Below, piece by piece: positions 1-50,771 of a stretch of DNA of 64,000 nucleotides. A program made the position numbers and the translations under genes. The notes under the pieces were generated by a model. That model was not told the origin of the DNA, ran no database searches, and was given only the letters and a program-made list of their open reading frames with translations. The stretch is from Artemia franciscana (taxonomy: Eukaryota; Arthropoda; Branchiopoda; Anostraca; Artemiidae), in NCBI RefSeq assembly GCF_032884065.1, contig NC_088880.1, forward strand, positions 28,981,298-29,045,297, written 5' to 3'. Numbering within the stretch: the stretch's first letter is position 1; each line of letters begins with the position of its first letter.

Positions 1-607
1 GGCTTAGTGGAGTAGTGAGTTGTTAGCAGCAGGAGTGTTGTAGATTCTTCATACAATTTTCTAATCAGCTGAAAGATTTTGGGAAAATTTTTATTGGTGC
101 TAATTAGCGCTAGCTAAATCTCAGCATTAGTAAAGTCTTATCGTGTTTGGGATTTAAAAAATGTAGAATGTAAACGAATATTTTAGTGTAAGTAGCAGAT
201 ATGTTTTAAACGTTTCTTTGAAAGAAATTCATCTGTTTAGTTTTAAGATAACATTTTTAAGGATGAAAGGAGATAAAACTTTCAAGCATCAATAGAATTC
301 TAATTTTATCAAATAAATAAGAGGGCTAGCTAACGAGCACAATCTTCAGTCGATGATAGTTAACCCTTCCAAGCTGCTGACATACGGTACTGTCGTCTCT
401 TTTTTGTTTGGCTTTAGATTGCTGATTGTGTTTCCGCAAGATGTCTCTTGATTGTTTAAATTTGAAATCTAATAAGATAAAAGTGATATTTTTCACTTCA
501 TCTTTAGACGATAGAATACTGAATTTAGAATAGAACATAATTTTATTTTAAAAATTCTTATAGCAACATGGTTGCTGAATTTGAATTTTACGTCAAACTA
601 GCACTAG

Positions 608-672
<65 letters not shown>

Positions 673-2600
673 TCGAAGGAATTTGAAGTTAACGTCAACA
701 TAATTCATTATATAAAATATATATAAAAAAAGAGTCAAACTTAATTAAAAACTCAAAAAGAAAAAATAAATAGATATCAATACAATTATCGGTACCGGTC
801 GCAATAGTTAAAAAGACATTAAGTTTCCAGAAATGATTTTTTTTTTTAAGTGAGTGAAAAACCAAAAAAAAAAAGTTTTTGGAGTTAATTAAAAGTTAGT
901 AACAATGGATACTCGAAGGATTGTTTTTTACGAACTCGAGAACATGATTGAAGGGCTTGAAGATAAGCCCCTCCTCCACTCCTAGCAAAAGGATCTGGTG
1001 GGGCCCGTGCTTGACGATGCTGGCAATCAGTCCATTTTTAGATGTTTTCAGGTAAACAAAAAACACAAATTTACAATTAGGTTCTTTTGACACTTAATAA
1101 TGACTTGTTATTTTAAAGTTAATTTGTGTCCATACTTCAGGGCATGATTGAGGGGCTTGAGGACAAGTTCCTCAGTTCCTCCCTTCGAGCATGGCTTACA
1201 AGGGCCATAAATGACAGTTTTATCGATAAAACTTAGTCTGACAACTTTGTCAACATCCGCGAAATTGAGAAATAACATATCTTAAAAAAACCGAATTTTG
1301 TCAAATAATACATTATGAAAACTGATAAGCTTAAATTTTTAATTATAATCTAGTCTTTTTAAAGGATTGAAATTTTGATCAGTTTCCTCCCTTTTTAAAA
1401 ATAATCAATGCGTAAGCTATTTTTACTATAATTTAAATTAAGCTCATTGTATATACTTAAAAACAAATAGTCTCGTAATAATCGCTCTCTCAATGCAACC
1501 AAACGCTAGCACTTAGGTCTACCTGAAAATTGCGGCTAAAGAATTTCTTAGTGAAAATATATTTAGAATACAGCAATTATGTTTTTTATATACAACTTCG
1601 TCTTTCAAATGGAAAATAAGGGCAACTTTCTCCAGGTCTGCTCTCTGGACGACGTTTGTCTAACAATTCTATAATGTTATCATTAAAAGGGTAGGCCATT
1701 CGTTGGTTATGGTAATATTTCAGCGAAAAACATCATTAAAAAAAAGTTCCTTAAACACACCGTAGATGCAATTTTTTTTTGTATCTGACTCAATAATTTA
1801 TTCAGGCCCTCCTTCTTGGTATCTCGTAATTTTGTAATTAACTCTTGCTTTCTTACATGTTTGATATAATTTTTCAGTTTTATTTTTCAGATACAAATTC
1901 CTCCCCCCCCCCTTCCTTTGGGACAAAATCCTTTGTCTGCGTGGGTTAAATGTAAAGAAAATAATATAAAAAAATTCAAATATGGCGGAATATCAAAACT
2001 TGTGTTTTATTGACTTACACGAGAAAAATTGCCTTACAAATTACAAAAGAAAATTACATAAAAGAAATAATATGCATAGGTTAAAAATACAATTGTAAAA
2101 AAAAATAATTTGCAGTGGTTAAAAATTAAATTGTTATAGAAAAAAATTATCTAATTAGTAAAAATAGTAGCAGTATCTTCCGTGCGACGCGCGGAATAGA
2201 ACCTGAAAACCCTCAAACAAGAGGCGTGGCCTCATCCACGGCGCTGTCATAAGTTATCTTCTATTTTGAATTTTCTGAGAAATTGTTTATACACTTTTGT
2301 TAAAAGAAATGCAGTTGCTGATAAATAGTTACTTCTTACTTAACGAATTATACTTATTCTTACTTACTTTAGGAATTATTTGAAATATCTGGGGAATGGC
2401 TGAAGAGATAATTGTAAAAATTTAACCCCCTATACTTTAACCACGACCCCCTCCCCTAATGTGCAAATATATAGATCAAATTTGTTTCTAAAGTAACGAA
2501 GAAACCGGTTTGTTCTCGAGTTTTACACAGCGTAAACTTGAGTGAGCGGCGTGTTATACACAAGTAACGGAATTTTTCCTGGCGAGAGAGTTGGATTTCC
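1..2600. other. No recognisable gene
   Basis: AT-rich sequence without an exon I can name. If MIPEP is intact this is probably intron, because the exon at 4333 needs an upstream exon ending in phase 1 and none is visible here. It contains an (AT)n tract, A/T homopolymers and two related short segments near 940 and 1145 that share the reading MIEGLEDK on the + strand. I cannot assign a function to any of it. Confidence 0.6.
610..670. repeat. (AT)n microsatellite
   Basis: About 30 uninterrupted AT dinucleotides. No transposon end abuts it, unlike the (AT)n tracts after 44 kb. Confidence 0.97.
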
Positions 2601-2633
2601 CGGTATTACTTAAAAAGATCGGAAATTTAATGC

Positions 2634-2715
2634 AAAAAAACAAGTTTTTTCAACTGAAAGTAAGGAGCAATAGCGAAACTTAAAATGAACAGAAACTTAC
2701 GTATATAAAAATACG
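2634..2715. repeat. Partial copy of the foldback-element family
   Basis: Contains the family's terminal signature (AACTGAAAGTAAGGAGC followed by an AACAGAAA-TTACGTATAT stretch) seen at 9660-9955, 10440-10500 and 61213-61530. Only one arm is present, so this is a fragment. Confidence 0.6.
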
Positions 2716-2759
2716 TATATAACAGCAGCCGCCCCTTCCACAAGACCTCGGTCTTTTAC

Positions 2760-4332
2760 CGTGTTTCGCTATTTACTGTGACCTTTGTGATGTTTGTTTG
2801 TGACGTTTATCGTTATATTAACTATTCTCTTTTAGTTGTGCACGCGCAAGAAGGCTTGCTTTGTTATATTTACTTTGAATTTTGTTTGTGACGTTTACTG
2901 TGATGTGTGACGTTATATTCATTATTCTTTCGTAGTTGTGCACGCACAAGAAGGATTGCTTGGTTATATTTACTGTGAATTTTGTTTGTGACGTTTACTG
3001 TGATGTTTGACGTTGTATTCGTTATTCTCTCGTAGTTGTGCACGCACAAGAAGGCTTGCTTGGTTATATTTACTGTGACTTTTGATTGTGACATTTGCTG
3101 TGATGTTTGACGTTATAATCATTATTATCTCGTAGTTGTGCACGCACAAGAAGGCTTGCCTGGTTATGTTTACTATAAACTTAGTTTGTGACGTTTACTG
3201 TGATGTTTGACGTTATATTCATTATTCTCTCGTAGTTGTGCATGCACAAGAAGGCTTGCTTGGTTATGTTTACTATAAATTTTGTTTGTGACGTTTACTG
3301 TGATGTTGACGTTATATTCATTATTCCCTCGTAGTTGTGCACGCACAAGAAGGCTTGTTTGGTTATATTTACTGTGGATTTTGTTTGTGATGTTTACGGT
3401 GATGTTTGACGTTATATTAATTATTCTCTCGTAGTTGTGCACGCACAAGAAGGCTTGCTTGGTTATATTTACTGTGACTTTTGATTGTGACGTTTGCTGT
3501 GATGTTTGACGTTATATTAATTATTCTCTTGTAGTTGTGCACGCACAAGAAGGCTTGCTTGGTTATATTTACCATGACTTTTGATTGTGACGTTTGCTGT
3601 GATGTTTGACGTTATATTCATTATTGTCTCGTAGTTGTGCACGCACAAGAAGGCTTGCTTGGTTGTGTTTGCTATAAATTTTGCTTGTGATGTTTACTGT
3701 GATGTTGACGTTATGTTCATTATTCCCTCGTAGTTGTGCACGCACAAGAAGGCTTGTTTGGTTATATTTACTGTGGATTTTGTTTGTGACGTTTACGGTG
3801 ATGTTTGACGTTATACTAATTATTCTCTCGTAGTTGTGCACGCACAAGAAGGCTTGCTTGGTTATATTTACTGTGACTTTTATTTGTGACGTTTGCTGTG
3901 ATGTTTGACGTTATATTAATTATTCTCTTGTAGTTGTGCACGCACAAGAAGGCTTGCTTGGTTATATTTACCATGACTTTTGATTGTGACGTTTGCTGTG
4001 ATGTTTGACGTTATATTCATTATTGTCTCGTAGTTGTGCACGCACAAGAAGGCTTGCTTGGTTGTGTTTGCTATAAATTTTGCTTGTGATGTTCACTGTG
4101 ATGTTGACGTTATGTTCATTATTCCCTCGTAGTTGTGCACGCACAAGAAGGCTTGTTTGGTTATATTTACTGTGGATTTTGTTTGTGACGTTTACGGTGA
4201 TGTTTGACGTTATACTAATTATTCTCTCGTAGTTGTGCACGCACAAGAAGGCTTGCTTGGTTATATTTACTGTGACTTTTATTTGTGACGTTTGCTGTGA
4301 TGTTTGACGTTATATTAATTATTCTCTTGTAG
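2760..4332 (+). repeat. 100-bp tandem array of MIPEP splice acceptor plus exon start
   Basis: About sixteen units of 99-100 bp. Each has the same order: a pyrimidine-rich stretch, an AG acceptor (CTCGTAG or CTTGTAG), then TTGTGCACGCACAAGAAGG and a stretch reading [15 protein letters not shown], then a TGA stop and a TTTGTGACG-rich spacer. The AGs end at 2835, 2935, 3035, 3135, 3235, 3334, 3434, 3534, 3634, 3733, 3833, 3933, 4033, 4132, 4232 and 4332. The last is the acceptor of the real exon. The units therefore look like repeated copies of the intron/exon junction itself. Bases 3535-3933 and 3934-4332 are almost identical, which points to a four-unit higher-order duplication. Minus-strand open frames across the array are by-products of the repeat. 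Confidence 0.93.
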
Positions 4333-4460
4333 TTGTGCACGCACAAGAAGGATTACTTGGTTATATTTACTGTGACTTTTTTGAACGACATGGAAAGCCG
4401 CATCAAGACTGTCATTTTACAATTGTTGGTGGACGAATGCTGAGCAATGGAAACTATCAG
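4333..4460 (+). CDS. MIPEP: Mitochondrial intermediate peptidase, internal exon
   Basis: Exon of the M3-family metallopeptidase that removes an octapeptide from imported mitochondrial precursors after the main processing peptidase. The 128 bases read [20 protein letters not shown] and then [22 protein letters not shown], which lines up with the conserved [12 protein letters not shown]...[14 protein letters not shown] segment before the zinc-binding domain of animal MIPEP. The acceptor is CTCTTGTAG; the donor is CAG|GTATGT at 4461. Two bases belong to a split valine codon, so the upstream intron is phase 1; the downstream intron is phase 0 and joins the exon at 14483. The first ~45 bases are the sequence repeated in the array just upstream. 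Identification rests on recalled family sequence, but the match is long and collinear. Confidence 0.93.
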
Positions 4461-5410
4461 GTATGTTAGATTCCGTTTCTAATTTTTTCATCTTTAGTAA
4501 TGATTAGGCTGCTTGGTGGTATTCCATGTTTGTTTTTTTTTAGTCCTAAAATTACCAAAGGTGCTCTAAGACAATATTCAAAGTACTGTGAAAAACGTCT
4601 AATTTATGGTTTTAGGCGTATTGTTTTTTGTTGTAACATTTAGAATAAATAATTATTATAGCAGCTATTTTATTATAATCATGCGTATTTTTATTATTAA
4701 GGTTTCAAATCAAGACTGTCAAAATACTCCCATTTGTATTGAATGCGTTCCTATTGAGCACATCTTCAGCCAAAAGTAAAGTGGAAGAAAAAAGTTTTTA
4801 TGACCAAAATTTTAAATAAGAAAAAAGAAAAAAACCTCTTGATTTATTAACGTAAAATATGTATTAATGTCATATACTGAAAATGGTCATTTAAATAAAA
4901 AGAAAAATTTAAATGCAATAAATTTTTTTTTGGTGGTCTCCACAACACTTTAAAGAATTTCGAAGTATTATAATATATCTAAATAAAATATATTTTCATA
5001 ATCTACTATTGAAATATGATTATGAATCTATCTAATTAAAAAGTAGCATAAACACTCTGATTGTCATATTAAAGTCATATAATATATGAAATTAATATAA
5101 TATATTAAATATAACATATAATATATATAATATAATATATAATATATATAATATAATATAATATATATAATATAATATAAGTCATATATAATATTACTAT
5201 ATTATATGACTTGTCTCAACTTTAATTATATAGAATGAAGCGTTTTTGTGCTTTTGCGATCAATGTTGGATGCACTCCATCCAAATGCTTTTGCGAGCAA
5301 TGTTGCTTAAAGCGACTCTAGAGAACTTCGGAGGAACAAAACGACCCTGTTACTTTTTAATATGGCGACTTGTTGGTTTACACAATTTATTTAGATTATT
5401 TTCTTTTACT
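4461..5410. other. MIPEP intron, left part
   Basis: No gene seen. AT-rich; 5085-5215 is a dense TATAATATA-type low-complexity stretch. Confidence 0.7.
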
Positions 5411-5450
5411 ATAACGAAAAGAGAAATCATCAATGCAACAGCACAAATAC

Positions 5451-5521
<71 letters not shown>

Positions 5522-5690
5522 AGATAGAAGGAGAAAGGGTAAACTGTTTTCCTAAATTAGTGATTAATATAGACCAGCACTTGAATGAGGCCTTAACCCT
5601 ACTCATCCATACAACCACATAGGTCAAACAGCATAGCCATACACAATCAACCATAAAGAATAATCCATGGACAGGCATTCATGTCGTCAA
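5411..5690 (-). repeat. Penelope-like pseudo-LTR, distal copy
   Basis: Shares GAAAAGAGAAATCATCAATG, an A-tract and the block from AGTGATTAATATAGACCAGC to AACAGCATAG with 9160-9315. It holds a 63-base A homopolymer at 5456-5518 (T on the element's strand) and an extra 40 bases after the tract that the other copy lacks. Confidence 0.85.
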
Positions 5691-6162
5691 TAAGTATAAG
5701 TCGTCATTTACCAAACAATAAGACAGTAAAGACAAATAATTCAGAGGCAACAATCCAACACAAGGGCTCATCAGGGAATACACTTGCCTATAGGGTTTCG
5801 GCACTTTAAATTCTCTACCCAGTCAAGTGTTGTGCCTACCACAGAATATCCATGGCATCCCCGTGTCAGGTATCACCCCCAAAATACATGCCTATGAAAA
5901 AAAAAGCCAGCAAATGTAGAACAACCAAGTAACACCAAAACAAGCTTATCCTGTTAATATACTCCTCTTTTTAGCAACAATAGGTAAACTAAATGTGATA
6001 AATTTTATCGAATCACAAATATTAACTCTTTGCAAAAAACCTGAATGACCTAACAATTATAGAATTCGTCATTACCATGTGGCTATTTTTGAAAAATCCG
6101 CTCTATTAGAAACACAATTCAAAATAGATGGCGCTGCGTCAACTTTTCGCGAACCTCCGAAA
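5691..6162 (-). other. Probable 3' untranslated part of the Penelope-like element
   Basis: No open frame. Lies between the RT end and the distal direct repeat. A piece near 5783-5815 (CTATAGGGTTTCGGCACTTT) also occurs in the truncated copy at 44041, which shows it belongs to the element. Confidence 0.6.
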
Positions 6163-6717
6163 TTAGCCGAAAATTTCCCTAAGTATTTCTAGATATTTTT
6201 TTTGGTATTTATTTATAAGTTCGTTATAATGAAAAATATTTTTTTTAAATTGCCAAGTTAATTTATTTGCAGAAAAACCTCTTAATATCAATTTTTGGCT
6301 TAAGATTTTAAATCTATTTTTAAAATCAATATAATTACTACAAATCCTTGCATAACGAAGTAACTGTGAGAAAAACGCCGAATATGTGATATTTGAGTGT
6401 ATATTACTTTCAGGGAATGGGAAACTAATCACTTCAAAGTCAAAATCATCCGTTTTATTATACATTTTAAAACTTAATTTATTATTATCAGAAATATTAA
6501 TATTTAAATCTAAGAAATGATCTTCAAGACCAGCGCCATGACTAGGTTCAAGAGTAAGCTCTGATGGATATATATTTTTTGAAATATCAATGAAATCCTT
6601 ACAATTTAAGACCAAAATATCATCTAAATATCTTTTATTATTTGATAAAACATGTTTTAAATTACTTGGATTATTCTTATCCATCATATATTTATATTCT
6701 GGTTGACTTAAAAACAA
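6163..6717 (-). pseudogene. Penelope-like reverse transcriptase, C-terminal part
   Basis: 184-residue frame in the same element as the endonuclease frame upstream. It starts just after RT motif B (IPMG...NASPFIADLF, read across the frame break at 6742-6753) and carries motif C as RYLDDIL at about residues 30-36, followed by GAGLEDHFLDLNI and the basic palm/thumb region ending KKYLEILREIFG. The RYLDD form is the usual Penelope-type catalytic motif. The missing start is explained by a 12-base C run that shifts the frame. It would polymerise cDNA at a nicked target if intact. Confidence 0.85.
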
Positions 6718-7167
6718 GTCAGCTATAAATGGGCTGGCATTCCCCCCCCCCCCATGGGAATTCTCACGATTTGCTTGTACAAATCACCACCAAATCTTAT
6801 ATAAGTATTGTATAAAACAAATTGTAATAACTCAAAAATCATATCCAAGCTGTAACATCTCAAGCTAACTGTAGTCTTAAAGCAATTTGTCCATATAGCT
6901 TTTTTATTATAAGTGTCTATTTTTAAGAACCTTTTACTAGATAAGAGGAAAGATTTCTAACACTACTTAAATTATCTAACACTACATTAAGTGATAAATT
7001 AGTATACATTGTCGCAAAATCGAAAGACTCAATTCTTTTAGCTGAAACCATTGTTAAAGAATCTATCACCTGCAGTGAATTATTAACACTCCAATATGGA
7101 TTAAAATTCGAAAATTTTTTAATACCAGAACAATAGGTTTTAAGTTTATTTATAATTTCCTTTAAAA

Positions 7168-8922
7168 TTAAAGAGAGGTCAGTAGCAGCAATGCGGGTTG
7201 GACATTTAGCTGCTCCAGCAATAAACCGTGGTTTAGGGGGATTCTTATGAAATTTTCAGTCCAATATAGGAAAGGGAACTTTTTATCATTGTCATTTATT
7301 TTAATATTAAAATTTTTAAAAAGTATTTCTTCAGTCTTTTCAATTAAATTCTCATCCTCTAAATTTACCTTTTCGTAAACATTAGTTGTGCATAACTCGG
7401 TTTTTAAGATATCACAATACAGCTTCTGACAAATTATGGCAAAATTATTATTAGCTTTATCCACCGGCACAATTACAAATTCATTCTGTAGATTAGCAAC
7501 TGCTTGTTTAATCTTAGCATTATAAAATAATGATTTAGTGTTACTATTTTTTAAGTTAGAATATATTTTATTTCGTATTCTACTAATAATTAAATTCTTC
7601 CAACTTTGAAAACTCTCTTTATTTTTATTCTCTTTCTTACAGCACTTATCAATAAATAAATCAAAATCATTTTCCAAGCCATCAAGAACACTCGATGGTT
7701 TCAGATGATGAGAAAGACGGAAATTAGCCCCTTTATTCATTATAATTTGAAGATCATCTTGCTTAATTATTGAAAAGTCCCCTGTTATAACATGTTTGTA
7801 AGTGGGATTTACAAATGGGCCAAGTTGCTTACAGTTACAAACCGGTTTCCAATTTATATCTATATCTAATCTTTTAAGTATTAAATTATAATTAAAAATA
7901 ATTTGCCCAATAGTTTTTGAAAATTTATAAGTTAAAACTGGACTATCATTATAATTCAAATTACTAGGAAGGGTCTGTTTCACATCCCGCTGATTTAAAA
8001 TTTCCGGTAAATTAATATCTTCAATCTGCTTACGAGTAAAATTAATAGGTAAATATAATCTGTTATCCTTATTACCAATCTTATCTAACTTTTTCTTTTT
8101 TGAAAGAAATTTAGTCTTAGATAGAATGCAAATTGTATCGCATATTACTTTAAAATTATATTCAAGAGCTGTATTATTCTTAACAGTCCAGAAAAGTTTG
8201 ATTAAATTCCTCTTGTATAAATTATTTAGACATTTTATTACAGAAATCATACCCCTAGATTCAAGTAGCTGGCATAGATTTATAGAAAACATATGTAAAT
8301 CTAATTGATTTTTTGTATTATTTTTCCTATGTCCTCTCGATCGTTTTTTACGTTTAGTAGGACAAGTAAAAGAAGGATGGTCCATAAAACCATCAATACA
8401 TTTAACAACAACCTGAGACATGTCACCATATTTTGCTACACGATCATTTAGCCCAAAAGGATAAGCTGTACCAAGAGTATGGATCCAGAAACCCTCCTGT
8501 TTACGTAGTCTATTATTCTTCTCTTCTTTATTTAAATTTTCTAACTCTAAATTTTCTAAAATTGTGACAGTTATATCTGATATGGAACATGTACTATTAT
8601 TGCAATGTTGAACTAGATAGTTATTAGTTTTTTCATTATTAACTGTTGTCTTGTGTCCAGAAAATCTTTTATAGATATTATTAGTTTTTTCCCTCACATA
8701 TTGTAGACAGCATTTACTACATTCTAATAGGTAAATTACATCGGTTGTTTTACAATTAACATTACCACGTAACTTGCATGCAAAATTTTTGTTATGCAAT
8801 GTACTCTTAACAGAAGTCCGTGGGATAAAGTGATCTTGGCAAAGAAAACAACGACTCTTACACTTACTAACTTTCAAAAAATCGTTCCGAGTTCCGAGGC
8901 TAATATTTGTATTTTGTTGCAT
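7168..8922 (-). pseudogene. GIY-YIG endonuclease plus RT N-terminus (Naiad-like PLE)
   Basis: 584-residue frame from ATG at 8922. Residues ~21-57 hold a Cys cluster (CKSRCFLC...C...C). Residues 62-76 are the GIY-YIG core in the form VIYLLECSKCCLQYV, with cysteines inside the core, and histidines at 90 (SGH) and 106 (VQH). This gives the CCHH pattern described for Naiad endonucleases. Residue 143 (KQEGFWIHTLGT) is the expected catalytic Glu, followed by PFGLND. A basic linker (TKRKKRSRGHRK, 189-200) leads to the RT N-terminal region with FVIVPVDKANNNFAI near residue 480. The frame goes wrong at about 7250. In another frame the RT continues with KPRFIAGAAKCPT, and FDFATMYTNL (motif A) near 7000-7030. 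Strong match in domain order and motifs; clade assignment is inference. Confidence 0.86.
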
Positions 8923-9159
8923 TAAAAGTTATTGAAAATAAATCCAAAAAATATGCCAAGGTCAATAGGTCAATAAATACATAAACATGAAAAAAAAAGT
9001 TGTTTCATGAAAACATGAAAAAACATGAAACTTGTATAAGTGCCATCTCACTAATAATTAACAATATCAGGTTTAAAACCTGGACCAGGGTAAAGGTCTG
9101 TCGGGGAGAAAACTAAAAAATTTTCCTCCACCAGCACTGGATCCAACCTGGAATAATAT

Positions 9160-14482: not shown

Positions 14483-14938
14483 AATCCTGTTGTTGTTTTG
14501 ATGCTGAATTTGCCCGCACCCTCATGGAGAAAACCTAGTCTACTCACTCCATCAATGGTTGAAAATCTCTTTCATGAAATGGGCCATGCTATGCATTCAA
14601 TGCTTGCACGAACCACGTATCAACACATAACTGGAACACGTTGCTCGACAGATTTAGCGGAAGTACCCTCTGTTTTGATGGAGTTCTTTGCGTCAGATCC
14701 GCGGGTTTTATCGAAATTTGCGAAACATTATAAAACTGGGGAACCCCTTCCTGAAAAGGCAATCCGTTCGCTATGTGCAGCCAAGCATGCGTTTACGGCT
14801 TCTGAAACGCAGCTGCAAACGTTCTACGCAGCGCTGGACCAAACATATCATGGAAAACATCCATTAAATGCCACGACGACGGAGATCTTGGCTAACGTCC
14901 AAAAAGAATATTATACACTACCTTACGTACATAATACT
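14483..14938 (+). CDS. MIPEP: Mitochondrial intermediate peptidase, catalytic exon
   Basis: 152 codons between an acceptor (TTTTTAG|AATCCTG) and a donor (AATACT|GTAAGT), phase 0 at both ends. Exon residues 31-35 are HEMGH, the HExxH zinc site; Glu at residue 60 (TDLAEVPS) lies 29 residues after the first His, where M3 peptidases have the third zinc ligand. [15 protein letters not shown] and [11 protein letters not shown] are MIPEP signatures. It follows the exon at 4333-4460 ([14 protein letters not shown]) and precedes 30038 (LPYVHNT|AWQLRFSH). The encoded enzyme acts in the mitochondrial matrix. No frameshift or missing catalytic residue is seen. Confidence 0.97.
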
Positions 14939-19854: not shown

Positions 19855-21160
19855 CTACTCGCAACTACTGAATCTCAGCATTACCAAGATTAATGCTCGC
19901 GACCGCAACCCACTCAATATTCGCTTGCTGCGACCCCTAGTTAGGGAACCACTTCTGCAGACCATTCTTCTCGTTTGAGAACCATGCTTAACCACTGTCA
20001 TCACTGTAGCTTCAAATATTTCAATCTTGGTTCGCAGGCTTGTATTCCTGTTCTTCCAACTTTCTTCAACTGTAAAAAAAAAACACACTCTTGGTCTCGA
20101 CTTTTCTACTTTGGACACCTTCACTGCATCCATAATTGTTACTAATAACAATACCTTGGTAAGTGAAGCTGTCTACTTGATCGATCTTCTCAATACCTAA
20201 TGAATTATGTTCACCTTCACTTGTTCTCAGCCAAAGCAACTCAGTTTTCTTAACAATAATTTTCAAGCCGTTTTTCGTGACCTGAACTCTCAAAACCTCC
20301 AAAAAATCATTCATTTGACTAATATTGTCATCTAGGACGGTCTAATCATCAATACAATTCAAGTCAGCGAGAGTTTTTTTTTTCCATTTGATGCCATGCT
20401 CTCACATAGTCTTTTTGGTGTTCCTAAGGACGAAGTCCGTCAAAATGATCCGTACTAATGGGGATAAAAGACAACCTTGCTTAACTTCTGATTCAATATG
20501 AAACCGGCTACTAACCTCATTTCCTACCTTAACCACAGCTATGTTATTATCGTATAACGCACTAGCCACTTCAGTGTCTTTATCCGATATGCCATACAGA
20601 GGGCCTTCGCTAAAGCTCTTCTATCGGCCGAATGAAACGCTTGCTCATGATCTATAGAGCTAAGGACTAAAGTCCTCCTCTACCCTTCCTTACATCCTCT
20701 CCCCTTCCTCTACCCTTCCTATAATAACACAGTTCTCCCCTTAAAACTCTATTTACAGCATCTCTAAGTCAAAAAGTATCATCTTATTAAGTAATTTACA
20801 TCCTACAGAAACCAAGCTAATGCCTCTATAATTAGTAAACTGACTCTTGTAATCTTTCTTATGGTAAGCTCTAATTAAACTCCAATATATCTCTAACTTC
20901 ACAACCACCATATTTAAAAACTCATATACCATACTGTCAGCACCCTTGCAAAATAAATCTTCTTTCCCTTCAAACTGTCACAAACTGTTTCATACCTTTC
21001 TATATAATTTCCTACAGCTTTTTCACGGTCTAAAATGTTCTGCCAATTTTTCTTTGACTCTTTCATTATCCCTAAATGCGTCCACGTTCCTATCTTTAAC
21101 CGGGACAAGTCCAGATTGACAGTTCCGTCTCAGTTTTTTTTTAAGTTCCAGTAGAATATT
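19855..21160 (-). pseudogene. RTE-type LINE reverse transcriptase relic, copy A
   Basis: Minus strand, in order: linker with YRGISLVSVG, the palm with EVKQGCLLSPL (motif B) and a degraded ADLNCIDD (motif C), then IDQVDSFTYQGIVIS, LKKV-WKNRNTSLRTKIEIFE and ATVMTVVKHGSQT. Multiple frameshifts. The family is the RTE group widespread in invertebrates. Confidence 0.82.
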
Positions 21161-21364
21161 TTATTATTATGCTGTCTGGCTACATCTTCTAGTTGTTCCG
21201 CAATTTCATTCATTGCTTCCAACTCACATCTTCTTAATTCATATTTTAATGCTTTGTCTGCTTCCTTTAGTTTCCTCTTATTCTCGTATGGTCATGCCCT
21301 CATTTTTGCTTAAAGCGTTGTCGCTAAGATTCCTAGTTGCGTTTCTAACTTTCCTCTCAAGACT

Positions 21365-21880
21365 TTCACCAAGCCGCCTTAGGCCAACACTGCTGCGTAC
21401 GCTCCTTCTCTGCCTGAATCTCGTCGAAGCTTCACTCTTCAAGCTCTCCACTTCTAATTTCTGTTAAATCTTTGTTTATGACCTCTTTCCACCCTATTCG
21501 GGGACGACCTTCTTTTCTTCTGGCTCTAGATGGATGGCCATGAATCACAATATTCGGTAATATGTCGTCCTTCATTCGTAAAACGTGACTAAGCCACCTT
21601 ATCCTTTCTTTTGTTGTTGCTCTAGAAAGTGGGATTGATCCACATTTTTTACAGAATATTATTTAATATATGTTCAGTCAAATGGGTACCTAAAATTAGC
21701 CTTTGACAATTACTCGGGAAAACATTACGTTGGCCTCCTAACTTTCTCAACAGTGAAAAATAACACCGTGCCCCTCGACTATCTTACTGTTTAAATCTCC
21801 ACTGCATCCACCATCTTTATTAAAAAAATATTTCTTTCGAAGTATAGGTTCTACTAACCTTAACCTCTTTGTTAATCGAA
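21365..21880 (-). mobile_element. Second RTE-type 3' fragment, copy A
   Basis: Minus strand reads KKCGSIPLSRATTKER then IRWLSHVLRMKDDILPNIVI and GRPRIGWKEV. It lies just upstream (on its strand) of the relic at 19855-21160, but it is a C-terminal piece, so it belongs to a separate insertion. Confidence 0.8.
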
Positions 21881-25569: not shown

Positions 25570-26925
25570 CTGAATTTCAGCATTACCAAGATTAATGCTC
25601 ACGACCGCAACCCACTCAATATTCGCTTGCGACCCACTGGTCGGTTGCAACCCCTAGCTAGGGAACCACTTCTGTAGACCATTCTTCAGGGAAGCACCTA
25701 AAAAATCCTTCCCTTGCTTTTTGGAGCCCCCTCGTTTGAGAACCATGCTTAACCACTGTCATCACTGTAGCTTCAAATATTTCAATCTTGGTTCGCAGGC
25801 TTGTATTCCTGTTCTTCTAACTTTCTTCAACTGTAAAAAAAACACACTCTTGGTCTTGGCTTTTCTACTTTGGACATCTTCACTGCATCCATAATTTTTA
25901 CTAATAACAATACCTTGGTAAGTGAAGCTGTCTACTTGATCGATCTTCTCAATACCTAATGAATTATGTTCACCTTCACTTGTTCTCAGCCAAAGCAACT
26001 CAGTTTTCTTAACAATAATTTTCAAGCCGTTTTTCGTGACCTGAACTCTCAAAACCTCCAAAAAATCATTCATTTGACTAATATTGTCATCTAGGACGGT
26101 CTAATCATCAATACAATTCAAGTCAGCGAGAGTTTTTTTTTCCATTTGATGCCATGCTCTCACATAGTCTTTTTGGTGTTCCTAAGGACGAAGTCCGTCA
26201 AAATGATCCGTACTAATGGGGATAAAAGACAACCTTGCTTAACTTCTGATTCAATATGAAACCGGCTACTAACCTCATTTCCTACCTTAACCACAGCTAT
26301 GTTATTATCGTATAACGCACTAGCCACTTCAGTGTCTTTATCCGATATGCCATACAGAGGGCCTTCGCTAAAGCTCTTCTATCGGCCGAATGAAACGCTT
26401 GCTCATGATCTATAGAGCTAAGGACTAAAGTCCTCCTCTACCCTTCCTTACATCCTCTCCCCTTCCTCTACCCTTCCTATAATAACACAGTTCTCCCCTT
26501 AAAACTTTATTTACAGCATCTCTAAGTCAAAAAGTATCATCTTATTAAGTAATTTACATCCTACAGAAACCAAGCTAATGCCTCTATAATTAGTAAACAG
26601 ACTCTTGTAATCTTTCTTATGGCAAGCTCTAATTCAACTCCAATATATCTCTAACTTCACAACCACCATATTTAAAAACTCATATACCATACTGTCAGCA
26701 CCCTTGCAAAATAAATCTTCTTTCCCTTCAAACTGTCACAAACTGTTTCATACCTTTCTATATAATTTCCTACAGCTTTTTCACGGTCTAAAATGTTCTG
26801 CCAATTTTTCTTTGACTCTTTCATTATCCCTAAATGCGTCCCCGTTCCTATCTTTAACCGGGACCAGTCCAGATTGACAGTTCCGTCTCAGTTTTTTTTT
26901 AAGTTCCAGTAGAATATTTTATTAT
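25570..26925 (-). pseudogene. RTE-type LINE relic, copy B
   Basis: Same segments as copy A, slightly better preserved at the thumb: VDSFTYQGIVISKNYGCSED then VQSRKAKTKSVFFLQLKKV. Confidence 0.82.
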
Positions 26926-27119
26926 TATGCTGTCTGGCTACATCTTCTAGTTGTTCCGCAATTTCATTCATTGCTTCCAATTCACACCTTCTTAATTCAT
27001 ATTTTAATGCTTTGTCTGCTTCCTTTAGTTTCCTCTTATTCTCGTATGGTCATGCCCTCATTTTTGCTTAAAGCGTTGTCGCTAAGATTCCTAGTTGCGT
27101 TTCTAACTTTCCTCTCAAG

Positions 27120-27720
27120 ACTTTCACCAAGCCGCCGTAGGCCAACACTGCTGCGTACGCTCCTTCTCTGCCTGAATCTCGTCGAAGCTTCACTCTTCAA
27201 GCTCTCCACTTCTAATTTCTGTTAAATCTTTTTTATGGCCTCTTTCCACCCTATTCGGGGACAACCTTCTTTTCTTCTGGCCCTAGATGGATGGCCATGA
27301 AGCACAATATTCGGTAATATGTCGTCCTTCATTCGTAAAACGTGACTAAGCCACCTTATCCTTTCTTTTGTTGTTACTCTAGAAAGTGGGATCGATCCAC
27401 ATTTTTTACAGCATATTATTTAATATATGTTCAGCCAAATGGGTACCTAAAATTAGCCTTTGACAATTACTCGTGAAAACATGTAACAAATCATTCTTAG
27501 CTTTTCGAAGCGTCCAGTTTTCAGGATCATTCTAGACTTGAGTCATTACGTTTGCCTCCTAACTTTCTCAACAGTGAAAAATAACACCGTGCCTCTCGAC
27601 TATCTTACTTTTTAAATCTCCACTGCATCCACCATCTTTAATTTAAAAAATATTTCTTTCGAAGTATAGGTTCTACTAACCTTAACCTCTTTGTTAATCG
27701 AAAACAACCATTTACAAATA
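27120..27720 (-). mobile_element. Second RTE-type 3' fragment, copy B
   Basis: As in copy A, with a ~60-base stretch at 27480-27541 absent from A. That stretch fits the normal RTE coding text, so A probably lost it. Confidence 0.75.
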
Positions 27721-30037: not shown

Positions 30038-30331
30038 GCCTGGCAATTACGCTTCAGTCACCTTTTCGGCTATGGTGCAAAATACTATTCATATCTCCTG
30101 TCAAGGGCTGTTGCGTCTTGGATATGGCAAGATTTGTTTCGTGAAAATCCACTATCAAGAGATTCTGGTGAAAAATATAGACGAGGTCTATTAGCTCACG
30201 GAGGAGGAATGCCCCCTCCAGAAATTCTTGCCAAGTTTTTAAAGCAGGATATCTCAGCAAGTAATCTTGCCCGTTCCTTAATTAATGAAATTGAAAATAG
30301 AAGAATGGAAGTTAACAACATATCAAGATAG
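30038..30331 (+). CDS. MIPEP: Mitochondrial intermediate peptidase, last exon
   Basis: 98 codons including the stop. Acceptor TTGTTTTCAG|GCCTGG, phase 0, completing LPYVHNT|AWQLRFSHLFGYGAKYY. The text SYLLSRAVAS-WIW, GEKYRRGLLAHGGG and the short acidic/basic tail ending MEVNNISR match the C-terminal domain of animal MIPEP. The AHGGG loop and the Tyr-rich GYGAKYYSY helix line the active-site channel in this family. Total visible coding length is 292 residues of an enzyme that is normally around 700, so the N-terminal half is outside the window. No coding lesions. Confidence 0.97.
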   Translation, partial: AWQLRFSHLFGYGAKYYSYLLSRAVASWIWQDLFRENPLSRDSGEKYRRGLLAHGGGMPPPEILAKFLKQDISASNLARSLINEIENRRMEVNNISR

Positions 30332-31665: not shown

Positions 31666-34092
31666 GGCACTTCTGACGAGGCAAGAAGAGCCAAGAGATC
31701 ATATGGTATGAGCTCTAGCAAAATTCTATGAGTCAATAGATTGATTTAAAAGGAAAATAAGAGACTTAATGCCGGTCAGGATTTAAAATAAGAGCTCTGA
31801 GTCACGATGTCCTTCTAAATATAAAAATTCATTAAGATCCGATCACCCACTAGTATGTTATAAATAAATAATTTTTTCTAATTTTTCCTCTCCCTTTAGC
31901 CCCCCAGATGGTCGAATCTGGGAAAATGACTTTGTCAAGTCAATTTATGTAGCTCCCTGACACGCCTACCAATTTTCATCGTCCTAGCACGTCCAGAAGC
32001 ACCAAACTCGCCAAATCACTGAACCTCTCCCCCCAACTCCACCAAAGAGAGCGAATCCAGTACGACTCCGTCAATCACGTATCAAGGACATTTGCTTATT
32101 CTATCCACCAAGATTCATCCCGATTCCTCCACTCCAAATGTTTTCCAAGATTTCCCCCTCAAACTCCCCCCAATGTCAAAAGATCTATTCGGGATATGAA
32201 ATAAGAGCTCTGAGACATGAATTCCTTCTAAACATCAAATTTCATTAAGATCCGATCACCTAATCGTAAAATAAACATACCCCAATTTTCACGTTTTCCA
32301 AGAATTCTGGTTTCCCCTCCAACTCCCCCCAATGTCACAGGATCTGGTCGGAGTTTAAAATTAGAGCTTTAAAGCGCAAGACCCTTTTAAATATCAAATT
32401 TCATTAAGATCTGGTCACCGTTTCGTAAGTTACGAATTCCTCAATTTTCAAAATTACCGCCCCCCCCCCTCCGACTCCACCAAAGAGAGCAGATCCAGTC
32501 CGATTATGTCAGTCACGTGTCTTAGACATGTTTTTGTTCTTCCCATCCAGTTTCATCCTGATCTCACCGCTTTAAGTATTTTCTAAGATTTCCGGTTCCC
32601 CTCAACTGCCCCCCCCAATTACGCTGGATCCGGTTGAGATTTAAAATAAGAGATCTGAGTCACGAGGTCCTTCTAAATATGAAGTTTCATGAAGATCCGG
32701 TCACTCCTTCGTAAGTTAAAAATAAGTCATTTTTTCTGATTTTTCAGAATTAACTCCCCCTCCCCCAATAGAGCGGATCCGTTCTAATTATGTAAATCAC
32801 GTATCTAAGACTTCTGCTTATTTTTCCCACCAAGTTTCATCCCGATCCCTCCAATCTAAGCGTTTTCCATGATTTTAGGTTCCCCCACCCCAAACTCCCC
32901 CCAATGCACCAGATCTGGTCGGCATTTAAAATAAGGGCTTTGAGACACGTTATCCTTCTAAATGTAAAATTTTATTGAGATCCGATCACCCAGTCGTAAG
33001 TTAAAAAATACCTCATTTTTTCTAATTTTTCAGAATTAACCCCCCCCCCCAGCTACCCCAATGAGAGCGGATCCGTTCCGTTTATGTCAGTCATGTATCT
33101 AGGACCTGTGATTATTTTCCCCACCAAGTTTCATCCCGATCCCTCCACTCTAAAGTGTTTTACAAGTTTTAGGTTTCCCCCTCCCAGCCCCCCCCCCCCC
33201 CATGTCACCAGATCCGGTCGGGATTTAAAATAAGAGCTCTGAGACACGATATCCTTCTAAATATCAAATTTCATTGAGATCCGATAACCCGTTCGTAAGT
33301 TAAAAATGCCTCATTTTTTCTAATTTTTCAGAATTACCCCCCCCCCCCAACTACCCCAAATAGAGCGGATCCGTTCCGGTTATGTCAATCATGTATCTAG
33401 GACTTGTGTTTATTTTTCCCACCAAGTTTCATCCCGATCCTTCCACTCTAAGCGTTTTTCAAGTTTTGGGTTTCCCCCTCCCAACTCCCCCCCCAATGTC
33501 ACCAGATCTGTTCAGGATTTAAAATAAGAGCTCTTAGACACGATATCCTTCTAAATATCAAATTTCATTGAGATCCGATCACCAGTTCGTAAGTTAAAAA
33601 TACCTCATTTTTTCTAATTTTTCAGAATTAACCCCCCCCCAAAAAAAAAAACTACCCCAAAGAGAGCGGATCCTTTCCGGTTATGTCAATCATGTATCTA
33701 GGACTTGTGCTTATTTTTCCCACCAAGTTTCATCCCGATCCCTCTCCCAACTTCCCCCCCCCCAATGTCACCAGATCCTGTCGGAATTTAAAACAGCTCT
33801 GAGACACAATATTCTTCCAAACATCAAATTCCATTAAGATCTGATCAACCGTTCGTAAGTTAAAAATACTTCAATTTTTCTATTTTTTCCGAATTAACGG
33901 ACCCCCCCCCCGCACTGGTCAAATCGGGAAAACCACTATTTCTAATTTAATCTGGTCCGGTCCCGGATACGCCTGTCAAATTTCATCGTCCTAGCTTACC
34001 TGGAAGTGCCTAAAGTAGCAAAACCGGGACCGACAGACCGACAGAATTTGCGATTGCTATATGTCACATGGTTAATACCAAGTGCCATAAAA
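31666..34092. mobile_element. TIR element carrying a ~270-bp satellite, copy 1
   Basis: Opens with CATATGGCACTTCTGACGAG and closes with TAATACCAAGTGCCATAAAA, an inverted terminal pair (TATGGCACTT / AAGTGCCATA). A short palindrome (AGAGCTCAT ... ATGAGCTCT) sits at the left end. Inside are about eight degenerate units of ~270 bp with the order GAGCTCTGAGACACGATATCC, CATTGAGATCCGATCACC, a C tract, AGAGAGCGGATCCGTTCCGG, CCACCAAGTTTCATCCCGAT. The right end has a conserved tail with GACCGACAGACCGACAGAA. No coding capacity. Confidence 0.8.
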
Positions 34093-34428
34093 ACTGAAAT
34101 TTTTACAGTTTTAAACAAGTAATTCGGGATTAGTCAGTTATTTTGAGCCAGAATTAACGAGTAACAAGGTTTCTCTCTGGAAATGATCGTAATATTATTA
34201 AATTTATGACAATTTTTGCTTGGGAGTTATATTATCATATAGTTATAATATCGTGTACGTATTTCTCAGAACACGGTTTACCCTCCGACATCTTATGCCT
34301 TATATTTGTTGTTATTTTTATTTGTAGCACACTCTCACAAGCGGCGCTTGTTTTACTGCCGATTGATTTTGTTTATGGGCTTGAAAATTATTATTACGAC
34401 TCCCAAACAGGGATTTGAGCATACTCAA
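34093..34428. other. Short intergenic spacer
   Basis: No gene recognised. Confidence 0.4.
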
Positions 34429-35280
34429 CTTCTCAGGAGTAGTCTTTTTCTGCTTCACTTACAGACATGTCGGCAAGGGATTAACCAATGTCCAAATTAG
34501 ATATCGGTGAGGGACTTTGGACTTACCAACAGAAAGAAGGGTCTCAAGAATAAATACAAAACTTCTCAGGAGTAGTCTTTTTCTGCTTCACTTACAGACA
34601 TGTCGGCAAGGGATTAACCAATGTTCAAATTAGATATCGGTGAGGGACTTTGGACTTACCAACAGAAAGAAGGGTCTCAAGAATAAATACAAAACTTCTC
34701 AGGAGTAGTCTTTTTCTGCTTCACTTACAGACATGTCGGCAAGGGATTAACCAATGTTCAAATTAGATATCGGGAAGGGACTTTAAACTTACCAACAGGA
34801 AAAAAGTTCTCAAGAATAAATACAAAACTTCTCAGGAGTAGTCTTTTTCTGCTTCACTTACAGACATGTCGGTAAGGGATTAACTAATGTTCAAATTAGA
34901 TATCGGGGAGGGACTTTGGACTTACCAACAGAAAGAAGAGTCTCAAGAATAAATACAAAACTTCTCAGGAGTAGTCTTTTTCTGCTTCAATTACAGACAT
35001 GTCGGCAAGGGATTAACTAATGCTCAAATTAGATATCGGGAAGGGACTGTGAACTTACCAATAGAAAAAAGGGTCTCAAGAATAAATACAAAGCTTCTCA
35101 GGAGTAGCCTTTTTCTGCTTCACTTACAGACATGTCAGCAAGGGATTAACCAATGTCCAAATGTCGGGGAGGGGTTAGACCAATGTCCAAATTAGACAGA
35201 GCAAAGAATAAAGCTCTGAATATGCTGAGGCCTAGGGTCCTCCTCTGCTTTGTGGATGTGGTTCATAAATTTTCCCAAGC
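34429..35280. repeat. 133-bp tandem array
   Basis: Units start at 34429, 34562, 34695, 34828, 34961 and 35094 (CTTCTCAGGAGTAG), giving an exact 133-bp period. Each unit contains TTCACTTACAGACATGTCGG and GGACTTACCAACAGAAAGAAG. The array ends with a block related to the 3' part of the 24047/30918 repeat family (GCTCTGAATATGCTGAGG ... GTTCATAAATTT), so it probably grew inside an element of that family. Confidence 0.93.
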
Positions 35281-39527: not shown

Positions 39528-41095
39528 CATATGGCACTTGTGACGAGGCGAGAAGAGCTAAGAGCCAAGAGATCATATTTTATGAGCTCTAACAAAATTC
39601 TATGAATCAATAGATTGAATTAAAAAGGAAAATAAGAGGCTTTATGCCGGTCAGGATTTAAAATAAGAGCTCTGAGTCACGATGTCCTTCTAAATATCAA
39701 AATTCATTAAGATCCGACCCCCCCTCCAATTCCACCAAAGAGAGCAGATCCGGTCCGGTTATGTCAGTCACGTATCTTAGACAGGTTTTTATTCTTCCCA
39801 TCCAGTTTCATCCTGATCTCACGCTTTAAGTATTTTCTAAGATTTCCGGTCCCCCCCAACTGCCCCCCCAATTACGCTTGATCCGGTTGAGATTTAAAAT
39901 AAGAGATCTGAGTTACGAGGTCCTTCTAAATATGAAGTTTCATGAAGATCCGATCACTCCTTCGCAAGCTAAAAATACGTCATTTTTTTTCAGAATTAAC
40001 CCCCCCCCCAATAGATCGGATCCGTTCCAATTATGTAAATCACGTATGTAAGACTTCTGCTTTTTTTCCCACCAAGTTTAATCCCGATCCCTCCAATCTA
40101 AGCGTTTTCCATGATTTTAGGTTCCCCCGCCCAAAACTTCCCCCAACGTCACCAGATCCAGTCAGGATTTAAAATAAGAGCTTTGAGACACGATATCCTT
40201 CTAAATATCAAATTTCATTGAGATCCGATAACCCGTTCGTAAGTTAAAAATACCTCATTTTTTCTAATTTTTCAGAATTAACCCCTCCCCCAACCACCCC
40301 AAAGAGAGCGGATCCGTTCCGGTTATGTCAATCATGTATCTAGGACTCGTGATTATTTTTTCCTCCAAGTTTCATCCCGATCCCTCCACTCTAAGTGTTT
40401 TTCAAGTTATAGGTTTCCCCCTCCCAACTTCCCCCCCAATGTCACCAGATCTGGTCGGGTTTAAAATAAGAGCTTTGAGCCACGATATCCTTCTAAATAT
40501 CAAATTTCATTGAGATCCGATCACCCGTTCGTAAGCTAAAAATACCTCATTTTTTCTAATTTTTCAGAATTAGCCCCCCCCCCCCCCCAATTACCCCAAA
40601 GAGAGCAGATCCGTTCCGATTATGTCAATCATGTATCTGGGACTTGTGCTTATTTTTCCCATCAAGTTTCATCCCGATCCCTCCACTCTAAGTGTTTTCC
40701 AAGATTTAGAGGTTTCCCCCCTCCAACTCCCCCCAATGTCATCAGATCCGGTCGGGACTTAAAATAAGAGCTCTGAGACACAATATCATTCCAAACATCA
40801 ATTTTCATTAAGATCCCTTCACCCATTCATAAGTTAAAAATACTTCATTTTTTCTATTTTTTCCGAATTAACCGGCCCCCCACTCCCCCCCCCCCCAGAT
40901 GGTCAAATTGGGAAAACGACTATTTTTTAATTTAAGCTGGTCCCGTCCCTGATACGCCTGCCAAATTTCATCGTCCTAGCTTACCTGGAAGTGCCTAAAG
41001 TAGCAAAACCAGGACCGACAGACAGACAGACAGACCGACAGAATTGGCGATTGCTATATGTCACTTGGTTAATACCAACTGCCATAAAAATTGGG
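39528..41095. mobile_element. TIR element carrying a ~270-bp satellite, copy 2
   Basis: Same structure as 31666-34092: opens CATATGGCACTTGTGACGAG and closes ATACCAACTGCCATAAAAA. It holds about five satellite units and the same PGACAGACAGAC-type tail (GACCGACAGACAGACAGAC). Fewer units than copy 1, so unit number varies between insertions. Confidence 0.8.
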
Positions 41096-41499: not shown

Positions 41500-42690
41500 A
41501 ACTAACTGTAGCTCATTATGTAACTAATGAGCACATGCATAAATCTTAGTTCATAGAGTTATTTTACTGTCAAACAGTTCGTGGTAACCAACTGTAGCTC
41601 ATTATGTAACTAATGAAAACATGCATACATCTTAGTTCATAGGGTTATTTTACTGTTAAACAGTTCATGGTAACTAACTGTAGCTCATTAGGTAACTAAT
41701 GAGCACATTCATACATATTAGTTCATAGAGTTATTTTACTGTCAAACAGTTCAAGGTAACTAACTTTAGCTCATTAGGTAACTAATGAGCACATGCATAA
41801 ATCTTAGTTCATAGAGTTGTTTTACTGTCAAACAGTTCATGGTAACTAACTGTAGCTCATTAGGTAACTAATGAGCACATTCATACATCTTAGTTCATAG
41901 GGTTATTTTACTGTCAAACAGTTCGTGGTAACCAACTGTAGCTCATTATGTAACTAATGAGCACATGCATACATATTAGTTCATAGAGTTATTTTACTGT
42001 CAAACAGTTCATGGTAACTAACTGTAGCTCATTAGGTAACTAATGAGCACATGCATAAATCTTAGTTCATAGAGTTATTTTACTGTCAAACAGTTCATGG
42101 TAACTAACTGTAGCTCATTAGGTAACTAATGAGCACATGCATACATCTTAGTTCATAGGGTTATTTTACTGTCAAACAGTTCGTGGTAACCAACTGTAGC
42201 TCATTATGTAACTAATGAGCACATGCATACATCTTAGTTCATAGGGTTATTTTACTGTCAAACAGTTCATGGTAACTAACTGTAGCTCATTAGGTAACTA
42301 ATGAGCACATGCATAAATCTTAGTTCATAGAGTTGTTTTACTGTCAAACAGTTCATGGTAACTAACTGTAGCTCATTAGGTAACTAATGAGCACATTCAT
42401 ACATCTTAGTTCATAGGGTTATTTTACTGTCAGACAGTTCATGGTAACTAACTGTAGCTCATTAGGTAACTAATGAGCACATGCATAAATCTTAGTTCAT
42501 AGAGTTGTTTTACTGTCAAACAGTTCGTGGTAACTAACTGTAGCTCATTAGGTAACTAATGAGCACATGCATACATCTTAGTTCATAGGGTTATTTTACT
42601 GTCAAACAGTACAAGGTAACTAACTGTAGCTCATTAGGTAACTAATGAGCACATGCATACATCTTAGTTCATAGAGTTATTTTACTGTTC
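41500..42690. repeat. 86-bp satellite array
   Basis: About fourteen units of 86 bp, e.g. AACTGTAGCTCATTAGGTAA ... CATGCATACATCTTAGTTCA ... TTTTACTGTCAAACAGTTC. Each unit contains a palindrome, GCTCATTA-GGTAAC-TAATGAGC. Alternating variants (CATGCATAAAT/CATTCATACAT; GAGTT/GGGTT) suggest a two-unit higher-order period. Confidence 0.95.
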
Positions 42691-45478: not shown

Positions 45479-45934
45479 TTAAATCTGGTATGCATTGATG
45501 ACCTTATCCAAGTCAAAATCCCAAACCCAATCATCATCGCTATCATTTTCAGTTTTGATATGTTTTGACTCTCGCTTTCCAGGTGGATTTTCATCTAACT
45601 GCGCGGTTTTGCGTTCTTTAGCCGCAAGCCTGTTTTCTTGCTGTTCTTGTGATTCCTCGGCACGCTTTCTTTTCTTACTTTCTCTATCAGCTGCAAGCCT
45701 GTTTTCTTGCTGTTCTTGTGATTCCTCGGCACGCTTTCTTTTCTTACTTTCTCTATCAGCAGCAAGTTTTTTGGCATAGACTCTTTGATCAGCTTCCTCG
45801 GCTGTTGCCATTGTAGGTTCTTCAGTCATTTTACAATTAAATATTTTTCCGTGAACGCATGTCTTAAATACCATTAATGACGTCACCGTCAAAGCAAAAA
45901 TGACGACAACTAACTTCATGACGTCAGTCGACAC
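45479..45934 (-). CDS. Helitron N-terminal-like protein
   Basis: 151-residue frame; the likely start is MTEEPTMATAEEA (36 residues in), since upstream text is TGACGTCA repeat. Two copies of LAADRESKKRKRAEESQEQQ-ENR follow, then KERKTAQLDENPPGKRESK and an acidic end NDSDDDWVWDFDLDKVINAY. The basic repeat resembles the N-terminus of animal Helitron Rep/helicase proteins, which carry similar AAERE...ESQEQRE repeats. The Rep and helicase domains are missing. Four residues differ from 55768-56223 on the other strand. Confidence 0.7.
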   Translation of the reverse strand: MSTDVMKLVVVIFALTVTSLMVFKTCVHGKIFNCKMTEEPTMATAEEADQRVYAKKLAADRESKKRKRAEESQEQQENRLAADRESKKRKRAEESQEQQENRLAAKERKTAQLDENPPGKRESKHIKTENDSDDDWVWDFDLDKVINAYQI

Positions 45935-46079
45935 AGAAACATGACGTCACCTGACAGACAGACACACAGACAGACAACTTATTTATATATATATAGATAT
46001 ATATATAAGCCCCTCCGCGAGCGTAAGTTGTTACGCGCCATATTAGTTACGTGCCGTTGTAGTTGTGTCCCTGTGTCCC

Positions 46080-48057: not shown

Positions 48058-48408
48058 TTATTTTTCAGCTTCACTATGAAATACATATCGCCGAACCTTT
48101 GTTTTTTTAACTAAAATCTGGTAGGCATTGATGACCTTATCCAAGTCAAGATCCCAAACCCAATCATCATCGCTATCATTTTCAGTTTTGATATGTTTTG
48201 ACTCTCGCTGTCCAGGTGGATCTTCATCTAACTGCGCGGTTTTGCGTTCTTTAGCCTCAAGCCTGTTTCCTTGCTGTTCTTTTGATTCCTCGGCACGCTT
48301 TCTTTTCTGACTTTCTCTATCAGCAGCAAGTTTTTTGGCATAGACTCTTTGAGCATCTTCATCGGCTTTTGCCATTGTAAGTTCATCAGTCATTTTAAAC
48401 TTAAACAT
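48058..48408 (-). CDS. Helitron N-terminal-like protein, shorter version
   Basis: 116 residues. One LAADRESQKRKRAEESKEQQ unit instead of two, then DEDPPGQRESKHIKTEND and DWVWDLDLDKVINAYQILVK. Identical to the product of 50130-50480. Confidence 0.7.
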   Translation of the reverse strand: MFKFKMTDELTMAKADEDAQRVYAKKLAADRESQKRKRAEESKEQQGNRLEAKERKTAQLDEDPPGQRESKHIKTENDSDDDWVWDLDLDKVINAYQILVKKTKVRRYVFHSEAEK

Positions 48409-48567
48409 TAATAGATTTCTACGTGAACATATATGTCTTAAATATCTTTAATGACGTCACCGTCATAGCAAAAATGACGACAACTAACTTCATGACGTCA
48501 GTCGACACAGAAACATGACGTCACCTGATCCACAGACAGACAACTTATTTTTATATATATAGATAGA

Positions 48568-50129: not shown

Positions 50130-50480
50130 TTATTTTTCAGCTTCACTATGAAATACATATCGCCGAACCTTTGTTTTTTTAACTAAAATCTGGTAGGCAT
50201 TGATGACCTTATCCAAGTCAAGATCCCAAACCCAATCATCATCGCTATCATTTTCAGTTTTGATATGTTTTGACTCTCGCTGTCCAGGTGGATCTTCATC
50301 TAACTGCGCGGTTTTGCGTTCTTTAGCCTCAAGCCTGTTTCCTTGCTGTTCTTTTGATTCCTCGGCACGCTTTCTTTTCTGACTTTCTCTATCAGCAGCA
50401 AGTTTTTTGGCATAGACTCTTTGAGCATCTTCATCGGCTTTTGCCATTGTAAGTTCATCAGTCATTTTAAACTTAAACAT
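50130..50480 (-). CDS. Helitron N-terminal-like protein, shorter version
   Basis: Same protein as 48058-48408. Identity at protein level over 116 residues shows the duplication is recent or converted. Confidence 0.7.
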   Translation of the reverse strand: MFKFKMTDELTMAKADEDAQRVYAKKLAADRESQKRKRAEESKEQQGNRLEAKERKTAQLDEDPPGQRESKHIKTENDSDDDWVWDLDLDKVINAYQILVKKTKVRRYVFHSEAEK

Positions 50481-50771
50481 TAATAGATTTCTACGTGAAC
50501 ATATATGTCTTAAATATCTTTAATGACGTCACCGTCATAGCAAAAATGACGACAACTAACTTCATGACGTCAGTCGACACAGAAACATGACGTCACCTGA
50601 TCCACAGACAGACAACTTATTTTTATATATATAGATAGATATAATTCTAAAATTGTCAGGTAATTTTCTATTTTGAAATAAAAACTAAAAATTATTGCTC
50701 AGACAACATAAATATTTTTGATATTTACATAATAGCTTTAGTGGTTCTGGACTGAAAACTAAATATGCTAA

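Follow-up and report, generated by a model that had tools for sequence, protein, structure and literature searches.

Three coding exons of a gene for mitochondrial intermediate peptidase (MIPEP) lie on the forward strand of the window, by which we mean the whole 64,000-nucleotide stretch of Artemia franciscana DNA that was analysed: exon A (4333-4460, 128 nt, entered in phase 1 and followed by the donor CAG/GTATGT), exon B (14483-14938, 456 nt) and exon C (30038-30331, 294 nt with the stop codon), which is the last coding exon. Together with exon 0, which lies upstream of the window at 28977054-28977264 of the same scaffold (C18), they form one open frame to the stop codon, and the intron between exon 0 and exon A is 8,365 bp long, with its start outside the window. 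All three exon pieces in the window match Peptidase_M3, at E=2.4e-48 for exon B and E=1.9e-19 for exon C, with exon A alone falling just below the curated cut-off (24.5 versus 27 bits). Among the best 120 of 650 matches of the joined protein, most of those that carry a name are mitochondrial intermediate peptidases, including those of a termite, ants, a fly and vertebrates, which, along with the single frame across the four exons, bears out the assignment of the exon to MIPEP in an earlier reading of this DNA (the sequence-only reading). The relatives among those 120 are at most 67% identical, with Anopheles dirus first and one cladoceran present, in a search whose length limits placed longer proteins outside its range.

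The introns and flanks hold several other repeated elements. Downstream of exon A, the intron leading to exon B contains retroelement ORFs on the reverse strand (6163-8928), the largest of which has PF01541, presumably the GIY-YIG domain as found in Penelope-like elements, in 8 of its 12 matches; the best match is 92% identical and has 158 members, and all 12 are without a name (11 from ENA and 1 other). Between exons B and C, a near-identical 115-aa ORF occurs at 21120-21467 and again at 26878-27225, both on the forward strand and about 5.8 kb apart, which from its sequence appears to be an intronic duplication. Five related ORFs, at 45479-45946, 48058-48447 and 50130-50519 on the reverse strand and at 55756-56223 and 57558-58028 on the forward strand, have DSDDDWVWDxDLDKVINA in common and lie in both orientations amid AT and A/T-rich simple arrays; they are probably copies of a repeated element. 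Further long minisatellites were found at 32325-33744 (294-bp unit), 34427-35162 (133 bp), 39735-40882 (292 bp) and 41500-42688 (86 bp, 13.8 copies at 93%), so that the region as a whole is rich in minisatellites.

The intron upstream of exon A ends in a minisatellite that runs across the splice junction. At 2784-4380, TRF reports a period of 100 bp with 16.0 copies and 89% matches, and in the same stretch a second period of 399 bp with 4.0 copies and 95% matches, i.e., a four-unit higher-order period. Delimited by its acceptors, the array occupies 2784-4332 on the forward strand and consists of 16 units of 99-100 bp (u1 to u16), each with the acceptor TAG/TTGTGCA at a spacing of 99 or 100 bp. 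The last AG, at 4331-4332, is the presumed working 3' splice site of exon A (predicted), and we refer to the 15 upstream copies as decoys. Each unit is made up of about 52 nt of intron end, comprising a branch-like motif, a pyrimidine tract and the AG, to which the decoys add about 48 nt of exon start. The sequence-only reading had described sixteen units preceding the exon, each repeating the acceptor AG and each still readable as the same peptide. The unit count and the AG in 16 of 16 units stand, but only 15 units precede the exon, the sixteenth being the real acceptor, and the exact peptide is kept in four of the 15 decoys (u3, u7, u11 and u15) and lost in the rest. As the peptide GYIYCDF is conserved in the MIPEP protein and none of 120 aligned homologues (120 listed of 650) has extra residues at the array junction, we infer that the exon came first and that the array was made from it.

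The most diverged unit is u1, with its acceptor at 2834-2835 and the pyrimidine tract TTCTCTTTTAG, which differs from the other 15 units by 14-23 changes, while u9 and u13 are identical to each other, as are u11 and u15; the left edge thus escapes homogenisation. Units 6-9, 10-13 and 14-16 form the 399-bp higher-order repeat (3335-4332, forward strand), with identity at 612 of 617 positions when the sequence from 3335 onwards is aligned to itself at an offset of 399. The array evolves in concert in its interior and excludes its boundary units, except that on the right the exclusion is limited to the exon part: in the 16-acceptor copy, the working acceptor matches decoy u12 exactly over 257 nt, 238 upstream and 19 downstream, and so evolves in concert with its decoys.

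The longest word common to the left flank and the exon is the 13-bp TATTTACTGTGAC, found at 2770-2782 on the forward strand and at 4364-4376 in exon A, and also within decoys at 3067, 3466, 3865 and 4264. It may be a slippage seed or a partial first unit. A match of this length was reached by none of 2000 composition shuffles but by 174 of 2000 pairs of real genomic windows. The word would fit slippage between short repeats, a general model for the birth of minisatellites; since it is not rare among genomic pairs and may itself be a partial first unit, a slippage origin is only suggested here. We picture about 100 bp around the MIPEP 3' splice site being tandemly duplicated, perhaps by slippage between flanking short repeats, and the array then being amplified, homogenised and turned over, with the latest step probably involving four units (399 bp) at a time.

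A DNA search of the 1.27-Gb genome for the array, in which very common words are skipped, found it in two places, the window and C18:28887764-28888985, 96 kb upstream. The sequence-only reading had raised the possibility that in relatives the same satellite lies elsewhere; in this genome the search found no place beyond the second copy, and its two matches give no sign of a dispersed satellite family. The second copy has 12 acceptors, and exon A follows them as it does in the window. When one 399-bp four-unit block is removed from the 16-acceptor version, 9 mismatches are left over 1,291 bp of 2771-4460, a minimum that is reached with starts of the removed block from 3696 to 3953. Eight of the mismatches are in the array, and the ninth is a nonsynonymous difference in exon A (4438 T/C, ATG/ACG, Met/Thr). 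Units u1, u2, u4, u6 and u7 are identical between the copies and the other units differ by 1-2, exon 0 is identical, and mismatches in the 5' flank number 61 over 7,096 positions (0.86%), alongside 102 gap columns. For the working acceptor of the 12-acceptor copy, decoy 8 is the best match, over 26+19 nt. Both copies belong to a collinear block of 84-87 kb (28808646-28892371 versus 28901782-28989141 on C18), the second instance of which includes window positions 1-7844. Its aligned pieces (at least 400 bp, more than 90% identity kept) are 91-98.6% identical, and one 1.5-kb piece is at 89%.

The second copy most likely represents the alternative haplotype, retained as a false duplication where contig ends were not merged in the assembly. 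The first block ends at a 100-N gap (28892372-28892471) and the second starts just past another (28901682-28901781), and because both overlap ends fall on such gaps the two blocks read as overlapping contig ends of different haplotypes; this layout suggests that the copies are alleles. The alternative, a true tandem segmental duplication of 84-87 kb that would put 12 and 16 acceptors in paralogous copies, gains something from the collinearity of the two blocks, which share a scaffold at a distance of 92-100 kb, and from the block pieces that are only 89-95% identical. Against it stand the exact placement of both overlap ends on gaps, the flank mismatch of 0.86%, which is within the range of heterozygosity, and a Pfam search (13 matches) that found exon 0 twice and exons B and C once each, with the short exon A undetected at either place. 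We therefore regard a segmental duplication as unlikely, and it bears on the variation only, not on the nature of the array. A further concern is an artefact of assembly, either in the array itself, as foreseen in the sequence-only reading, or in its unit number, given that assemblers easily expand or collapse near-identical repeat blocks such as those of 399 bp. The array is carried, however, by two stretches parted by scaffold gaps, each with its own unit number and private substitutions, which makes an artefact very unlikely.

Anatomically, the array is what had been described as a row of truncating decoy acceptors built from the gene's own junction. When spliced to exon 0, every one of the 15 decoys runs into a stop codon in frame, either 48 or 54 nt past its AG. 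The earlier claim that this stop is a TGA directly after CDF applies to two of them (u3 and u7). Under the usual rule for NMD, a stop 50-55 nt upstream of a junction is sufficient; the decoy stops precede the next exon junction by 172-1569 nt, which should make decoy-spliced transcripts NMD substrates. The forward strand of 2784-4332 contains no GTRAG and no GTRNGT donor, which leaves the decoys hardly able to form exons of their own. With crude donor scores, the best GT donor in the array scores 1.33, compared with 6.10 for the exon A donor and 2.86 for that of exon B, and the exon 0 donor, which each of the 16 acceptors would have to use (C18:28977265, CTG/GTATTC), is weak, at -0.92.

A similarly crude acceptor score gives 4.11-6.56 for the decoys and 5.97 for the working site in the 16-acceptor copy; u2 (6.56) scores above the working site, u8 and u12 equal it, and the other 12 are lower. 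Branch-like motifs are present as CTAAT in u11 and u15 and as TTAAC in u1. Judged by these scores, local signal strength would hardly select among the acceptors. Use of a decoy would lengthen exon A to 228-1625 nt, and exon definition most likely directs splicing to the last acceptor, since this is the only AG whose distance to a strong donor, 128 nt, corresponds to an ordinary exon. In line with this, beta-globin model pre-mRNAs with a duplicated 3' splice site are reported to splice exclusively to the distal one, albeit very inefficiently (PMC5389562). Any decoy that were used would give a transcript with an early stop, which NMD should remove. We infer this choice of AG and this fate of decoy products from the arrangement of the sites, and some decoy use, or a cost of the array, is possible.

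Minisatellite-like duplications of intron/exon boundaries have been described in amphioxus under the name of mirages, in Adh3, globin (BflGb6 and BflGb9) and TnC genes (PMC3087553, PMC3902484), and similar imperfect repeats are reported there for PGBD5 (PMC3087553, PMC3902484). As in mirages, the end of the host gene's intron, the splice signal and the start of the exon all lie within the MIPEP unit. The closest known system appears to be the globin gene BflGb6, in which the repeats likewise comprise the 3' end of the intron and the 5' part of the exon and for which haplotypes with 6 and 3 units are described (PMC3087553), to be set beside the 12 and 16 acceptors of the presumed MIPEP alleles. 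In amphioxus mirages, inner units are reported as homogenised and boundary units as not (PMC3087553, PMC3902484), whereas in MIPEP the intron side of the working acceptor takes part in homogenisation. The MIPEP array also differs in being in another gene, in its 15 decoys and 399-bp higher-order repeat, and in a host genome whose MIPEP is closest to those of insects among the matches listed. Somatic instability is reported at the Adh3 mirage (PMC3087553, PMC3902484), and the Adh3 data together with globin RT-PCR are taken in PMC3087553 to suggest that regular splicing is undisturbed by mirages. No arthropod or MIPEP mirage appeared by title among the matches listed in the literature on splice-junction minisatellites. 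The array looks like a longer mirage in a different lineage, that is, an instance of a known but little-studied kind and not a new mechanism.

Two human systems offer further comparisons. Intron 7 of the factor VII gene has, like the array, a variable number of highly homologous repeats (37 bp) at a splice site. Normally, the 5' site lying furthest upstream is described as the only one in use, with oriented scanning reported for donors and with disease resulting from a first-repeat mutation (PMC6627357). The MIPEP units carry 3' splice sites and no GTRAG and are not repeats of this 5'-site type; factor VII intron 7 is the donor-side analogue. Genes in human segmental duplications also have tandem repeats of minisatellite size at exon-intron boundaries, able to alter splicing, but these average 30-bp units in four copies and are reported to have produced novel introns with transcript support (PMC2812944).

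On balance, we consider with good though not complete confidence that the array is mainly a neutral, mirage-type minisatellite that arose from the duplicated MIPEP 3' splice site and is spliced to its last acceptor. A neutral minisatellite formed across the junction was one of two options in the sequence-only reading and is the better supported. Minisatellites with a period of at least 50 and at least 3 copies (n=15, the array included) make up 10.0% of the 163,516 bp examined, and at this density one that spans a junction needs no special cause. Divergence between the two copies also counts in favour of this reading, at 9 differences in 1,291 bp for array plus exon A compared with 0.86% for the 5' flank. 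The other option, that unit number tunes expression, would have decoys competing for U2AF or U2 snRNP, or being used and leading to NMD, so that more units mean less MIPEP and selection may hold the array in place. The AG and the stop kept in 15 of 15 decoys and the existence of two array lengths, 12 and 16 acceptors, are in keeping with this, as are model substrates in which a duplicated 3' splice site was bound by U2AF twice over and spliced weakly (PMC5389562). Variability is also lower around the AGs, with 3 events in the 23 columns from -3 to +20 versus 44 in the 78 elsewhere, and the least-variable 24-column window has a post hoc shuffle p of 0.017 (0.011 on raw counts), which could hint at constraint. 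However, the identical tract of the working acceptor ends at +19, and exchange between acceptor and decoys could produce such low variability without function. The recent 399-bp amplification alone suffices to keep the AGs, and changes in the exon-derived parts of the decoys look neutral, 13 of 17 distinct substitutions being nonsynonymous and the remaining 4 synonymous (0.79 nonsynonymous expected). RNA structure at the junction was no better than that of shuffles in three 100-nt stretches (z -0.23, 0.01 and -1.06), and a fourth stretch of 28 nt gave z 0.55. With regular splicing reported for amphioxus mirages (PMC3087553) as well, we hold a regulatory role of unit number to be improbable. 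Splicing within the array, adding peptide repeats or new mini-exons as an intermediate of intron gain, follows a model put forward for amphioxus globins (PMC3087553). The array is without a GTRAG donor, and extra residues were found in none of the 120 homologues, though those listed, at most 67% identical, are too distant to be from this species; we consider this reading highly improbable.

In the papers cited here mirages are reported from amphioxus, and a long array with 15 decoys in an apparently different lineage suggests that genomes rich in minisatellites may generally contain them. The locus is also a natural experiment on how a spliceosome picks out the correct AG when 16 nearly identical ones are on offer. 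Its 12- and 16-acceptor versions can be compared, and it may serve as a test case for introns gained through duplication of a boundary. More speculatively, and in our view improbably, the working acceptor could ride a conveyor belt, being repeatedly replaced from or copied into the decoys, with unit number setting MIPEP output, through decoy use and NMD, like a dial that is both heritable and mutable. Were this true, the splice site of the gene would evolve by minisatellite turnover.
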